A stretch of 64,000 nucleotides of DNA from Sphingobacteriaceae bacterium. GTDB lineage: Bacteria; Bacteroidota; Bacteroidia; Sphingobacteriales; Sphingobacteriaceae. Location of the stretch: the NCBI GenBank assembly GCA_024645045.1, contig JAHEGO010000068.1:62001-126000 (forward strand), in the 5' to 3' direction. The translations under genes were made by a program, and so were the position numbers. Below, in pieces: positions 2,169 to 57,371 of the stretch; position 1 is the stretch's first letter, and every line of letters starts with the position of its first letter. Under the pieces are notes generated by a model, which was not told where the DNA came from, did not search any database, and worked only from the letters and a program-made list of their open reading frames with translations.

Positions 2169-5100
2169 TTATTCTTCCTCTTCAGCAGCTGGAATTTCAA
2201 ATTGTGCATCCTTAAAATTGTTTTTAACAAAGTTGCACCAATTGCAATCTTTCTTACCACAACCAGTGGTAAATTCTTGATTTTTTATTTTAGCATAAAC
2301 TGTTTCAATTTGCTTAGATACGATTTGAACATCGTCTGGTCTTATCATAATTTTTGATTTTTTGTATTCCTCTTTAACAGGTTCTACAAAATCAAATTCG
2401 GTGCTAATTACATTCCAATCGTTAACTTTAAAATTATCAATTAGAATTTTATAAAATACCGCTTGTCTCCAATAGTCTCCACCATTTGGATCTTTGTCTG
2501 AAGGTCCATCCATTTTCTTTTTAGCGTTTTCGTAGGAGCCCGTTTTGTAGTCAACCACATTGACATCTCTTCCGAAAAATTCTAACTTATCGATTTTCCC
2601 TTTAATTGGAATACCATTGAGTTCTACATTTTTAATTTCTTTTTCTAATGCGACAATTTTATGCCACTGATTAATGTATCTTTTGTAATAGGCAGGAATT
2701 ATTTTATGACCATATTCTGTTCTGCGTTCAAATTGTTCTTTAGTAAAGGCCTCTCTATTCTTTACCATATACCAGTCAAAGTCTCTAATTAACTGGCTTT
2801 GATCCGGGAACTCATTTCCTTCTGAAAGCGGTCTAAAGTATTTTTCTAATGCCCAATGTATGGCAGAACCAAAGGTCATGGTTTCATTTTTACCACTTGG
2901 TACTTGTACTAAATTTTGGAAATAAAATTTAAGTGGACAGCTTAAATAATTATTTAAATGCGTTACACTTAAACTATAGTTCTCTAATTTACTGCTCACC
3001 CATGCACGGTCTATGGCACTGGTTGTAACAGGTGCATCTTCGTTGTTAAAGTTCAATGCAAAGAAATCCATAAGTTGATCCGCAGCTACAATTTTATTTT
3101 GCTCTTTTAGGTTTGCACTACTAATAATTTCACTTACAAATAGACTGCGCTCTATAGGTTTGTTTTTTAGGTCTTGCGTAACATATGAAATTTGTAAATG
3201 TGATTTAGCTCTAGTAATGGCAACATAAAATAACCTTCTTAATTCTTCTTGGTCGCTTCCCTCCGTATTGCTTTGAAATAGGGTATTTGGAAGTTTATAC
3301 GTATTGCTTTTCTTGCGTTTACCTTCCCAAACATTTTTATTTGCGCCAATTAAAAATACATATTCGAACTCTAAACCTTTTGAACCATGGCAAGTAAGAA
3401 AATTGACACCATTTTCATTGAATAATATTTTATTTAGTTCTAAAGAAAGGTCATTCTCTTTTAATAAATCTATTTTTTCAATAAAATCTTTTAATCCTAA
3501 ATCTGGATTTTTTCTGGACTCTTCTTTTAAGAAATTAAATAAGGAAGACAGCACTTGCATGTACCATGTCTTTTCATTTGATTTTAAAACATAAGCAAGA
3601 ATACCACCTTTGGTAATGATTTTTTCAAATAAATTTTGCAAAGTGATATTGACCGATTCTTTAATGTAGTATTCTAAATCTGCACTCAATGTCCTCATTG
3701 CGGCAATAGATGAAGGTTCAAACATGTCGGCCTGCTTGCTGTTCAGCTCGTTTAGTAATCTTCTGATTGAAGTTTTATCTTTGCTATTTCTGAAATTATA
3801 TTGATTTGCTGTAATGGTAATTTTTGCAATATCAATAGGGTTGATATCAAAAAAGTCGTAATGTAATATTTGAAATAATATTTCATCACCGCTATAGGGG
3901 ATGTCTGTTTCTGCAGCAATATATCTTAATAGATTTAAAATCTTTTGTGCAAAAGGTATATGTAAAATATTTACTTTCTTTTTTGTGGTAACAGGAATAT
4001 TTTTTTCTTGAAAGAAGCGTGCCAAGTCTTCACCAGATTGATGCTCTTTATAAATAATTGCAATTTCTTTTGGCGCAATATTTTTGTTTTGAATTAAATC
4101 GGCAACTTGGGCAGTGATGTCTGCGAACTCTGCAATTGGATTTTGATATTCAATAATTTCAGGTGCAATATTTAAATTTTTATAATCTTCATGACTGGAT
4201 ATCAACTCTTTAGATAAGCCAGGCATTTGTATGCGTTCAGTGTTGAAGCCTATTAAATTTTTAGATACATCTAAAATGTTCTGAGTAGAACGGTAGTTGT
4301 TTTCCAACATAATGGTGCAAAGTGTTTTCGGATACCATTGCGTATAATTAATTAGGTTTTCAATATTAGCACCCTGAAATCTAAAAATGGATTGATCATC
4401 ATCACCAACTACAAAAACATTCGGTTCATCCCAATAGTTAACTAAAAGTTTAATTAATTCATTTTGTGAACCACTCGTATCTTGAAATTCATCTATTAAG
4501 AAATAATGAAATCTTTCTTGGTAGTTTAATAAAAAGTTTTCATCTGTTTGAAATGCTTTTAGAATCCAAGTGATCATGTCATCAAAGTCATAGCGTGCAG
4601 CTTGTTTCATCAGTTCGGTATAATTATCAAACTCTGCAGCAGCAGCTTTTAGCAAATCAATTTTTTCAATTTCTTCTTGAAAGGCGGGCTTAAAATCACC
4701 TTTTTTATTTTCTTTACGATTAGTTTGGTAGCGAAATTTTTTATATAATTCTGAATCTTCTTCTGCAAACTTTATTAATTCAATGTATTCGTCTGCTTTT
4801 TCTTTAATTAATTGTGCCGTCCAATTTTCTCTTTTCATGATAGAAAATAATTCCATCAATCGTTTTATTTCATAATAAACATCACCTCTGTAACGCTTGA
4901 GGGGGTTGCCTTCTTTGAGTTTATGAATGAGTTTTCTAAACAGGTCAATTTTTTCTAAATCTGAAATCGCTTCTAAATTTAATTTTCCAAATCGCGTTAA
5001 ATTTTCTTGAATAATATCATTACAAAAAGAATGAAAAGTATGAATGTTAACTCGATAAGCATCTGGACCAATAAATTCGAATAATCTTTTGCGCATGGCA

Positions 5101-54821: not shown

Positions 54822-54906
54822 TTAACATTAGCATAACATTAAAGACATATTTGTTTCTTATTTCTCTATTTCTTAACAATTCCTTAACATTGGCAATCTA
54901 TTTTAG
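54822..54906 (+). promoter_or_regulatory. Pho-box-like repeats and -7 element of DUF47-PiT operon
   Basis: TTAACAT (54822) and ATAACAT (54833) are spaced 11 bases apart. A second pair, TTAACAA (54873) and TTAACAT (54884), has the same 11-base spacing. The second pair ends 8 bases before TATTTTAG (54899-54906), one mismatch from TAnnTTTG, so it occupies the place of the -33 element. This is the layout of PhoB/PhoP activated promoters. The rest of the 224-base gap shows nothing further. Confidence 0.6.
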
Positions 54907-54926: not shown

Positions 54927-55574
54927 ATGTCATTAAACTCTATTTTCCAGTATTTCGTACCAAAGGATAAAAAGTTTTTCCCTTTATTCGAAGAAGCAAG
55001 TAATAACCTAATTTTAATTTCTGCTAAGTTGATTGAAGCGGTTAACACTACTGATTTAACTAAAAGACAAGAGATCATTAAAGAAATTGAAGTTTTTGAA
55101 CATGAAGGAGATAAAATCACACATGAAATCTTTCTTGAACTAAGTAAAAACTTTATCACTCCATTTGATAGAGAAGATATTCATGCATTGGCTTCAGCTA
55201 TTGATGATATTGCTGATTATATTCATGGATCTGCAAATAGAATCAATTTATATAATCTTACAAATATTACAGAGCCAATTAAAAAATTAGCTGAATTAAT
55301 TCACCAAGGTTGCAAAGATATTCATAAGGGTGTTGCTGAATTAAAAGATTTAAAAAACATTCGTAATGTAACTGATTCATGTGTGCGTATCAATAGCATG
55401 GAGAACCAAGCAGATTATATTTTTGACATGGCCGTTGCTGATTTATTTAAGAACGAAACGAATGCAATTGAGTTATTCAAAAATAAAGAAGTATTAAATG
55501 CATTAGAAACAGCTACAGATAAATGTGAAGATGTTGCGAATGTGATGGAGACAATTATCGTTAAACACGCTTAA
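54927..55574 (+). CDS. DUF47 (PhoU-like) phosphate transport accessory protein
   Basis: This 215-residue all-helical protein is of the DUF47/PhoU-like family found beside PiT transporters. Conserved stretches are EVFEHEGDKITHEIFLEL, TPFDREDIHALASAIDDIAD, and INSMENQADYIF. Such proteins are thought to modulate the activity of the adjacent transporter. It is 10 bases upstream of the PiT gene. The promoter has Pho-box-like repeats, suggesting induction by phosphate limitation. Confidence 0.92.
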   Translation: MSLNSIFQYFVPKDKKFFPLFEEASNNLILISAKLIEAVNTTDLTKRQEIIKEIEVFEHEGDKITHEIFLELSKNFITPFDREDIHALASAIDDIADYIHGSANRINLYNLTNITEPIKKLAELIHQGCKDIHKGVAELKDLKNIRNVTDSCVRINSMENQADYIFDMAVADLFKNETNAIELFKNKEVLNALETATDKCEDVANVMETIIVKHA

Positions 55575-55584
55575 TAATAAAAAA

Positions 55585-56643
55585 ATGAGTTTAACTCTTC
55601 TATTTACCGTAATTGCACTGGCATTAGTATTTGATTATATAAATGGTTTTCATGATGCAGCAAATTCAATAGCTACGGTAGTTTCCACTAAGGTATTGAC
55701 ACCAACTCAAGCAGTAATTTGGGCTGCATTTTTCAACTTTGTAGCATTTTTAATTTTTAAAGATCACAATGTAGCTAATACGGTAGCCAAAGCTGTAGAT
55801 ACTTCTCAAATTAATTTAGTTGTAATTTTAGCAGGTATTATTGCTGCAATATTCTGGAATTTATTAACATGGTGGCTGGGAATTCCATCAAGTTCATCTC
55901 ATACTTTAATTGGTGGTTTTGCAGGAGCAGCAATTGCTCACGGGGGTTTAACAATTGTAAATTTACAAGTAATTGGTAAAGTTGCTGCCTTTATTTTCCT
56001 TGCTCCTATTATTGGAATGGTGTTAGCATATATTATCACAATCATTATTATTCATATATGTAAATATGTTTTGCCTAGTAAAGCAGAATGGTGGTTCAGA
56101 AAATTACAATTAGTTTCATCGGCTGCATTTAGTATCGGGCATGGTGGAAATGATGCACAAAAAGTAATGGGAATTATTGCTGCAGCAATTGTAGTATACA
56201 CAGGTAGTGCAGGCGCAGATATGTCTCATGTTCCAACTTGGTTACATATTAATTTCCATGAAGTTAATGGTAAAAAAGTATTTGAATTACCAAATTGGAT
56301 ACCATTAGCATGTTACTCTGCAATTGCTTTAGGTACGATGTCTGGTGGATGGAAAATTGTAAAAACAATGGGCTCAAAAATTACAAAAGTTACACCATTA
56401 GAAGGTGTAGCTGCAGAAACAGCTGGAGCAATTACTTTATTTATGACCGAACATTTTAAAATTCCGGTATCTACTACTCATACAATTACAGGTTCAATTA
56501 TAGGCGTTGGATTGTCAAAAAGAATATCAGCTGTTAGATGGGGTGTAACTATTAATTTACTTTGGGCTTGGATATTAACTATTCCAGTTTCTGCTGCTCT
56601 AGCTGCTTTAACTTATTTTGTTATTTCCATATTTATAAAATAG
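55585..56643 (+). CDS. Inorganic phosphate transporter, PiT family
   Basis: This 352-residue membrane protein takes up phosphate with protons or cations. The two PiT signature repeats are visible as DYINGFHDAANSIATVVSTK (residues 18-37) and SIGHGGNDAQKVMG in the second half, with PSSSSHTLIGG and PVSTTHTITGSI as the paired serine/threonine motifs. About ten membrane segments are present. It forms an operon with the DUF47 gene and ends at a strong terminator. Confidence 0.95.
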   Translation: MSLTLLFTVIALALVFDYINGFHDAANSIATVVSTKVLTPTQAVIWAAFFNFVAFLIFKDHNVANTVAKAVDTSQINLVVILAGIIAAIFWNLLTWWLGIPSSSSHTLIGGFAGAAIAHGGLTIVNLQVIGKVAAFIFLAPIIGMVLAYIITIIIIHICKYVLPSKAEWWFRKLQLVSSAAFSIGHGGNDAQKVMGIIAAAIVVYTGSAGADMSHVPTWLHINFHEVNGKKVFELPNWIPLACYSAIALGTMSGGWKIVKTMGSKITKVTPLEGVAAETAGAITLFMTEHFKIPVSTTHTITGSIIGVGLSKRISAVRWGVTINLLWAWILTIPVSAALAALTYFVISIFIK

Positions 56644-56660
56644 CAATCAAAATATTATTT

Positions 56661-56695
56661 AAAAAAAGCTCAATTCAAAAAATTGAGCTTTTTTT
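56661..56695. terminator. Terminator between PiT gene and beta-barrel gene
   Basis: The stem AAAAAAGCTCAATT/AATTGAGCTTTTTT has a short CAAAA loop, and lies between convergent genes. It overlaps the last codon of the barrel gene. Confidence 0.9.
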
Positions 56696-57371
56696 AATTT
56701 TGTCCAGGACATTTATTTTGCTTTTTATATCGATAATCTTTTGTGCCAAAATTATAACTTAAACCTAAGCCAATAAATTGGTATTGATCCATGTTACCAT
56801 TCATTACTAGTCCATCGATGTCATCTGTAAACGTCCAATAATTTCGATAGAAAAAAGACAAATCAATTCTTTTGATTAATGGCTTTGTAAGATATATACC
56901 AATGGGAATTACCACATTTGCTTGATTTGTTGAATTGGTATCTACAATTGAATTTTGGATATGTGTTGATCTGTTTAAAATGCCCAAACCACTTGCAACA
57001 TAAAGCTTAGCAATTTGGTGGTCAATCAATAAATATTTAATGGAAGCATTTAAATCGTAGGAGTTTTGTAAATTATATTTACTTGCAAAACTTTCTCCAT
57101 AAAAATCACCTATTAATCTTGCGTCTAATAAAAGTGAAAAACGATAATTAATAGGTTTTTCAAAAAAGAGATCTAAGGCTAAATCGTTGTTTTCATTTGT
57201 AAAGTCAGATTTGGTCAATTGACTTTTGGTAATTTGCCCGATTACAAAACCTAAGCTATAAGGTGTCGTTTCTGCAGCAGCAGCGTATAAAAATTTTGAT
57301 TTTCGATAAGATTGAGATTGGCCTGCTAAGCAAATGGAGAATAGCAATGTCAATAGCAGTATTTTTTTCAT
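56694..57371 (-). CDS. Outer-membrane beta-barrel protein of unknown function
   Basis: This 225-residue protein has a signal peptide (MKKILLLTLLFSICLAGQSQ) and alternating hydrophobic beta-strands with aromatic girdles, for example FSLLLDARLIGDFYGESF, and YQFIGLGLSYNFGTKDY near the end. This fits a small outer-membrane barrel. The ATG at 57371 is chosen over TTG at 57395. It is divergent from radA across only 38 bases. No functional motif is seen; OprF/PorT-like barrels are possible relatives. Confidence 0.75.
   Translation of the reverse strand: MKKILLLTLLFSICLAGQSQSYRKSKFLYAAAAETTPYSLGFVIGQITKSQLTKSDFTNENNDLALDLFFEKPINYRFSLLLDARLIGDFYGESFASKYNLQNSYDLNASIKYLLIDHQIAKLYVASGLGILNRSTHIQNSIVDTNSTNQANVVIPIGIYLTKPLIKRIDLSFFYRNYWTFTDDIDGLVMNGNMDQYQFIGLGLSYNFGTKDYRYKKQNKCPGQN

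Follow-up and report, generated by a model that had tools for sequence, protein, structure and literature searches.

The promoter of a phosphate transport operon in a Sphingobacteriaceae genome raises the question of whether this bacterial group has a Pho box of its own and, if so, in which direction the operon is regulated. The operon (DUF47-PiT) lies in a 64-kb stretch of DNA that was analysed as a whole (the window). An earlier note on this DNA had described four heptamers, arranged as two pairs at an exact spacing of 11 bases, upstream of DUF47-PiT. The coordinates of the heptamers were confirmed, and genes matching PF01865 and PF01384 are indeed located 3' of them. The features of the region are as follows.

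54822..54839, + strand: distal Pho box candidate, TTAACAT-N4-ATAACAT, 51 bp 5' of the proximal pair
54873..54890, + strand: probable proximal Pho box, TTAACAA-N4-TTAACAT, two direct repeats with an 11-bp period
54899..54906, + strand: -7 promoter element TATTTTAG, near-consensus, one mismatch to TAnnTTTG
54927..55574, + strand: DUF47 (PhoU_div, PF01865) phosphate transporter accessory gene, by family match
55585..56643, + strand: PiT-family inorganic phosphate transporter gene (PF01384), by family match

The proximal pair consists of TTAACAA (54873-54879) and TTAACAT (54884-54890), or TTAACA-N5-TTAACA in its hexamer form (54873-54889). The distal pair consists of TTAACAT (54822-54828) and ATAACAT (54833-54839), likewise at 11-base spacing. 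The element TATTTTAG starts 8 bases past the last heptamer, which is 9 nt past the last TTAACA, and the DUF47-PiT promoter has no -33 TTTG. The proposal that the second pair takes the place of the -33 element, 8 bases before a near-consensus -7 element, is thus borne out, and this geometry is kept in relatives. At the other end of the operon, directly 3' of the PiT gene, positions 56660-56697 of the window contain an A-tract, an inverted repeat (AAGCTCAATT/AATTGAGCTT) and a T-run; judging from the sequence, this is likely an intrinsic terminator that ends the DUF47-PiT operon.

The window contains two matches to the pattern WTAACA-N5-WTAACA; shuffled sequences contained 0.14 on average, and 1 shuffle in 100 reached a count of two. 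In the whole genome (1.83 Mb), the pattern had 6 matches and a reversed control pattern had 8. The genome-wide count was therefore rejected as uninformative: the pattern itself is not enriched, and it is the placement of the matches that carries the signal. Two of the 6 pairs are located at DUF47-PiT and two in the pst promoter. At the control rate, two pairs would fall within one given 150-nt region with a probability of about 5e-8.

Orthologues of DUF47-PiT were present in 41 of 60 relatives. The promoter sites of 24 relatives, one per near-identical group, were aligned without gaps (CTTAACATTAACTTAACATTG-N6-TANNTTTG); the TTAAC cores were nearly invariant, and the Bacteroidota consensus from this alignment was CTTAACAT-TAA-CTTAACAT. 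A search of named genomes yielded 80 Sphingobacteriaceae loci, mostly from Pedobacter, Mucilaginibacter and Sphingobacterium. A lack of conservation in orthologous promoters was one of the outcomes that, according to the earlier note, would refute its proposal, and the proposal withstood this check. With at most one mismatch, TTAACA-N5-TTAACA was found 5' of DUF47 in 79 of the 80 named genomes (exact in 74), against 27 (4%; exact in 8) of 662 control promoters of the same loci, the relatives being non-independent samples, though the remaining promoter sequence has diverged among them. As the control-promoter counts may contain genuine Pho boxes, the contrast is if anything understated. The reversed pattern was found in none of the 80 DUF47 upstream regions, and a pair in the opposite orientation at DUF47 was seen only once in 79 loci. 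Between the last TTAACA and TA(nn)TT(T/A)G, 61 of 77 named relatives have a gap of 9 nt, as does the 24-site alignment; in none of 60 sites with this geometry does TTTG stand at the -33 distance. Through this comparison with relatives the proximal pair is secure. No counterpart of the distal pair was found in the DUF47 upstream regions of 79 relatives among the named genomes, and this pair was rejected as part of a conserved operator. It appears to be species-specific so far and, taken alone, is possibly a product of chance. The reading of the heptamers as a Pho box was therefore upheld with one correction: conservation at DUF47-PiT, recurrence at pst and phoB and occurrence at other phosphate-uptake genes of the class support it for the proximal pair, and the distal pair drops out.

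To find further sites, we used a sequence profile built from the 24 relatives' DUF47-PiT sites, from which the window's own genome and every pst site had been left out. In the own genome, the profile ranked the promoter of porin-pstSCAB-phoU first (E 1.9e-4), the proximal pair second (E 0.0032) and the distal pair third (E 0.0048). The pst promoter has two pairs 75 bp apart, before an operon encoding a Porin_O_P protein, PstS, PstC, PstA, PstB and PhoU. It carries the box but lacks a good TAnnTTTG at the constant distance seen at DUF47-PiT, and its -7 geometry is less regular than that of DUF47-PiT. A weak match (E 0.77) was located directly 5' of the gene for a PhoB-like regulator, where three repeats (TTTACA, TTAACA and TTAACC) succeed one another at 11 bp. 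Two or three 11-bp-periodic TTAAC repeats were found in 21 of 22 phoB promoters of the family, L249 being the one without; the best pair matches 10-11 of 12 positions and lies between -52 and -78. The box is common to three phosphate loci of the own genome, namely DUF47-PiT, porin-pstSCAB-phoU and phoB.

Two peculiarities of the pst genes were observed. The PstC encoded at L007:9567-10775 (402 aa) matches PstS in its N-terminal part (TIGR02136, E 2e-8), which is followed by the permease domain, and PstCs of about 400 aa occur in many relatives. In five congeners (G001-G005), nothing closer to PstS than a distant match (E about 1e-9) was found. Therefore, the pst operon of the own genome may be a gain, or may have been lost in the congeners.

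A class-wide search of 149 genomes with the profile gave 63 sites at E<=0.01 against about 1.5 expected, a rough comparison based on nominal E-values. Of these sites, 23 precede DUF47 or pst, including four training sites and the three of the own genome. Among the 20 strongest other sites, three precede PF02690 Na/Pi cotransporter genes, and one each is located at or flanks a PiT gene, a Porin_O_P gene, a porin-DUF47-PiT operon and a secreted phosphodiesterase gene. One more lies in the gap between ppk1 and sixA and another in the gap between a phoB-like gene and a TonB-receptor gene; the remainder are at genes without a clear phosphate role. The match in the gap between ppk1 and the gene for a SixA-like phosphatase is found in L142 at about 3073-3099 (G087:C8:5572). 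In L116 (G005:C54:3534) and L148 (G017:C1:703488), a strong Pho-box plus TAnnTTTG site follows a DUF962/Mpo1-like gene. The gene 3' of it looks like an outer-membrane receptor and is a candidate phosphate-regulated receptor. Sites of similar score occur in two further congeners (G002:C82:3451 and G004:C203:3090).

The own genome encodes one close match to a pst-adjacent PhoB, at C21:127678-128358 (G000:C21:127678). At least one such match was present in 40 of 41 genomes, and within the family a genome usually has a single closely matching regulator. The protein is composed of a receiver domain (PF00072) and a winged-helix domain (Trans_reg_C, PF00486), and among NCBIfam models it matches PhoB (TIGR02154) and Bacteroides PhoB (NF053854) best. 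It scores under both equivalog cut-offs (230.7 vs 296.2 bits and 219.7 vs 270 bits, respectively) and is therefore called PhoB-like. The recognition helix of the protein, RTIDVHIRKIREK, varies little among lineages with the TTAACA box. The frame after the gene, presumed to be phoR, runs off the end of the contig, which leaves the kinase domain out of view. Directly 5' of DUF47-PiT and on the same strand, 70 of 79 loci have a gene for a PhoR-like histidine kinase that shares 53-77% identity with a PhoR-like reference. Within the genus to which the window belongs, mfd adjoins DUF47-PiT on the 5' side in place of the kinase gene, and the regulator gene is located elsewhere.

The PhoP box of Bacillus subtilis is made of TTAACA-like repeats with gaps of about 5 bp, so that hexamer and period are the same as here, whereas its promoters and regulator are those of Firmicutes and it often has more than two repeats. 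Pho boxes are generally 11-bp direct repeats, the sequence of which varies among bacteria (PMC4415409). The nearest in sequence is the box of cyanobacterial SphR, with repeats of the form CTTAACCT-N3 (PMC1906773); it likewise has 8-bp repeats, an 11-bp period and an identical CTTAAC core. However, each repeat departs from the SphR form by a single base (CTTAACAT here, CTTAACCT in SphR), so that the present sequence is not of the SphR type, and the SphR box has at least three repeats while the DUF47-PiT box has two, coupled to the Bacteroidota -7 element. The Proteobacterial precedent to which the earlier note had appealed, 11-base-periodic boxes in the position of the upstream promoter element, is documented for E. 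coli PhoB, whose two head-to-tail 7+4 bp repeats replace that element (PMC4415409, PMC1906773). The E. coli repeat is CTGTCAT, about 10 bp upstream of the -10 element (PMC1906773), whereas TTAACAT lies here 8 bp from TAnnTTTG.

Within the phylum, PhoB of Bacteroides fragilis is known to bind the pst promoter, and low-phosphate expression of pst and of the PiT gene BF3715 requires phoB (PMC3547664). It resembles the present case in phylum, regulator family and target operons, and no PhoB binding sequence was found in that paper. Riemerella anatipestifer PhoP was shown by DAP-seq to bind a motif, TTTAACA, which shares the heptamer core at the motif level (PMC9603813). However, that motif was described as ArcA-like and its regulator was tied to aerotolerance and virulence, and the accessible part of the report describes no tandem Pho box at phosphate genes. 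In a double deletion of the kinase and regulator, pstS rose and did not fall (PMC9603813, PMC5399024). Omics data on the phosphate response of Flavobacterium were presented without a box (PMC8115612). The author of the earlier note knew of no well-defined Pho box for the group. Our search agrees: no published phosphate Pho box for Bacteroidota was found in the searchable literature, outside of which lie subscription journals and regulon databases, and for this phylum only the Riemerella motif, which its authors did not present as a phosphate box (PMC9603813), and the Flavobacterium data came up.

Taken together, the proximal pair is very probably a Pho box, that is, a tandem operator through which a PhoB-like regulator activates DUF47-PiT at low phosphate. 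We infer PhoB as the binder, phosphate as the signal and activation as the direction, the last because of the promoter layout, the box common with pst and the B. fragilis precedent. Weighing against this reading are the scores of the regulator below the PhoB cut-offs, the pst promoter with its poor -7 element, the high-scoring sites of the class at genes without a clear phosphate role, and the interpretation and pstS result reported for Riemerella. When phosphate is scarce, the kinase would phosphorylate PhoB, which would bind as a head-to-tail dimer to the two 11-bp repeats, each made of TTAACAT and a 4-bp A/T-rich spacer. Since this promoter offers a -7 element and lacks the -33, PhoB may occupy the -33 position, recruit the sigma-RNA polymerase to TAnnTTTG and thereby turn DUF47-PiT on. 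The same regulon would include porin-pstSCAB-phoU and, through autoregulation, phoBR.

The main rival to activation accepts the PhoB site and has PhoB repress DUF47-PiT at low phosphate, so that the low-affinity PiT is exchanged for Pst. Such a case is known from Sinorhizobium meliloti, where orfA-pit is repressed on phosphate starvation and has a Pho box near the translation start (PMC3131613). In the DUF47-PiT promoter, by contrast, the box fills the place of the absent -33 element and keeps a constant distance to the -7, which is the layout of PhoB-activated promoters, and the same box precedes pst and Na/Pi cotransporter genes. In addition, the B. fragilis PiT gene loses its expression without phoB (PMC3547664), and the congeners, with only distant PstS-like matches, appear to be without a pst operon; PiT is therefore likely the inducible system there. 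Repression thus seems unlikely. Somewhat less likely still is an operator of some other member of the OmpR family, such as a global protein resembling ArcA or PhoP that does not sense phosphate and counts phosphate genes among many targets. Direct repeats of 11 bp are common to OmpR-family regulators, and the Riemerella 'PhoP' motif TTTAACA, likened to ArcA, came with 583 peaks (PMC9603813). However, the own genome has few exact pairs, four of the six being at DUF47-PiT and pst; phoB itself is preceded by the box, a PhoR-like kinase gene adjoins DUF47-PiT, and the family usually has a single closely matching regulator per genome.

Two further explanations dispense with a regulator. The TTAACA pair might be a constitutive core-promoter element, a mere substitute for the -33, as its fixed distance to the -7 and the absence of the -33 TTTG would allow. 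We consider this very improbable, since the pair is concentrated at phosphate genes, is exact in only 8 of 662 control promoters and stands at other distances at phoB and pst. Least probable of all, to the point of being negligible, is that the repeats arose by chance in intergenic DNA rich in A and T. The genome-wide pattern is admittedly no commoner than its reversed control, but the occurrence in 79 of 80 relatives against 4% of control promoters, which for the proximal pair already refutes chance, is accompanied by a fixed spacing, orientation and distance to the -7.

A different box was observed in the lineage with Bacteroides-type PhoB. Six genomes encode a PhoB above the cut-off of this family, and six of their phoB or pst promoter regions were examined (L250-L252 and L260-L262). 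None of the six contained a TTAAC-type pair. Instead, GTAAY-N6-GTAAY, again with an 11-bp period, was found in five of them (shuffle P 0.0005-0.001 each, for a pattern picked after inspection of the sequences). The Bacteroides-type PhoB genomes differ in this respect from those with TTAACA. The recognition helices of their PhoBs are RTIDVNITRLRKK or RTVDVHI(V/T)RLRKK. Lys versus Arg at a single helix position was considered as setting T versus G in the box and was rejected, because G039 and G103 carry Arg and yet have TTAACA-type boxes. Only the combined helix change correlates with the type of box. No structural paper dealing with the base contacts of PhoB turned up in a search of the literature.

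These comparisons lead to a broader proposition, which as a whole we favour slightly. The Bacteroidota would have their own Pho box, TTAACA-N5-TTAACA, set on the -7 promoter of the phylum; the form in the Bacteroides-type lineage, GTAAY-N6-GTAAY, would have arisen from it by drift, alongside a change of the PhoB helix from RTIDVHIRKLREK to RTIDVNITRLRKK; and DUF47-PiT, elsewhere usually a constitutive low-affinity system, would be a core phosphate-inducible operon adjoining the gene of the sensor kinase. Phosphate responses are already known from Flavobacterium and, with dependence on PhoB, from B. fragilis, while the phosphate operator of the phylum is absent from the searchable papers. A regulator helix and its operator that change together between sister lineages would offer a natural case of such a joint change. 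With a defined box, Pho regulons could be read directly from thousands of Bacteroidota genomes, and the box may thus provide a simple route to phosphate-starvation genes throughout an entire bacterial group.
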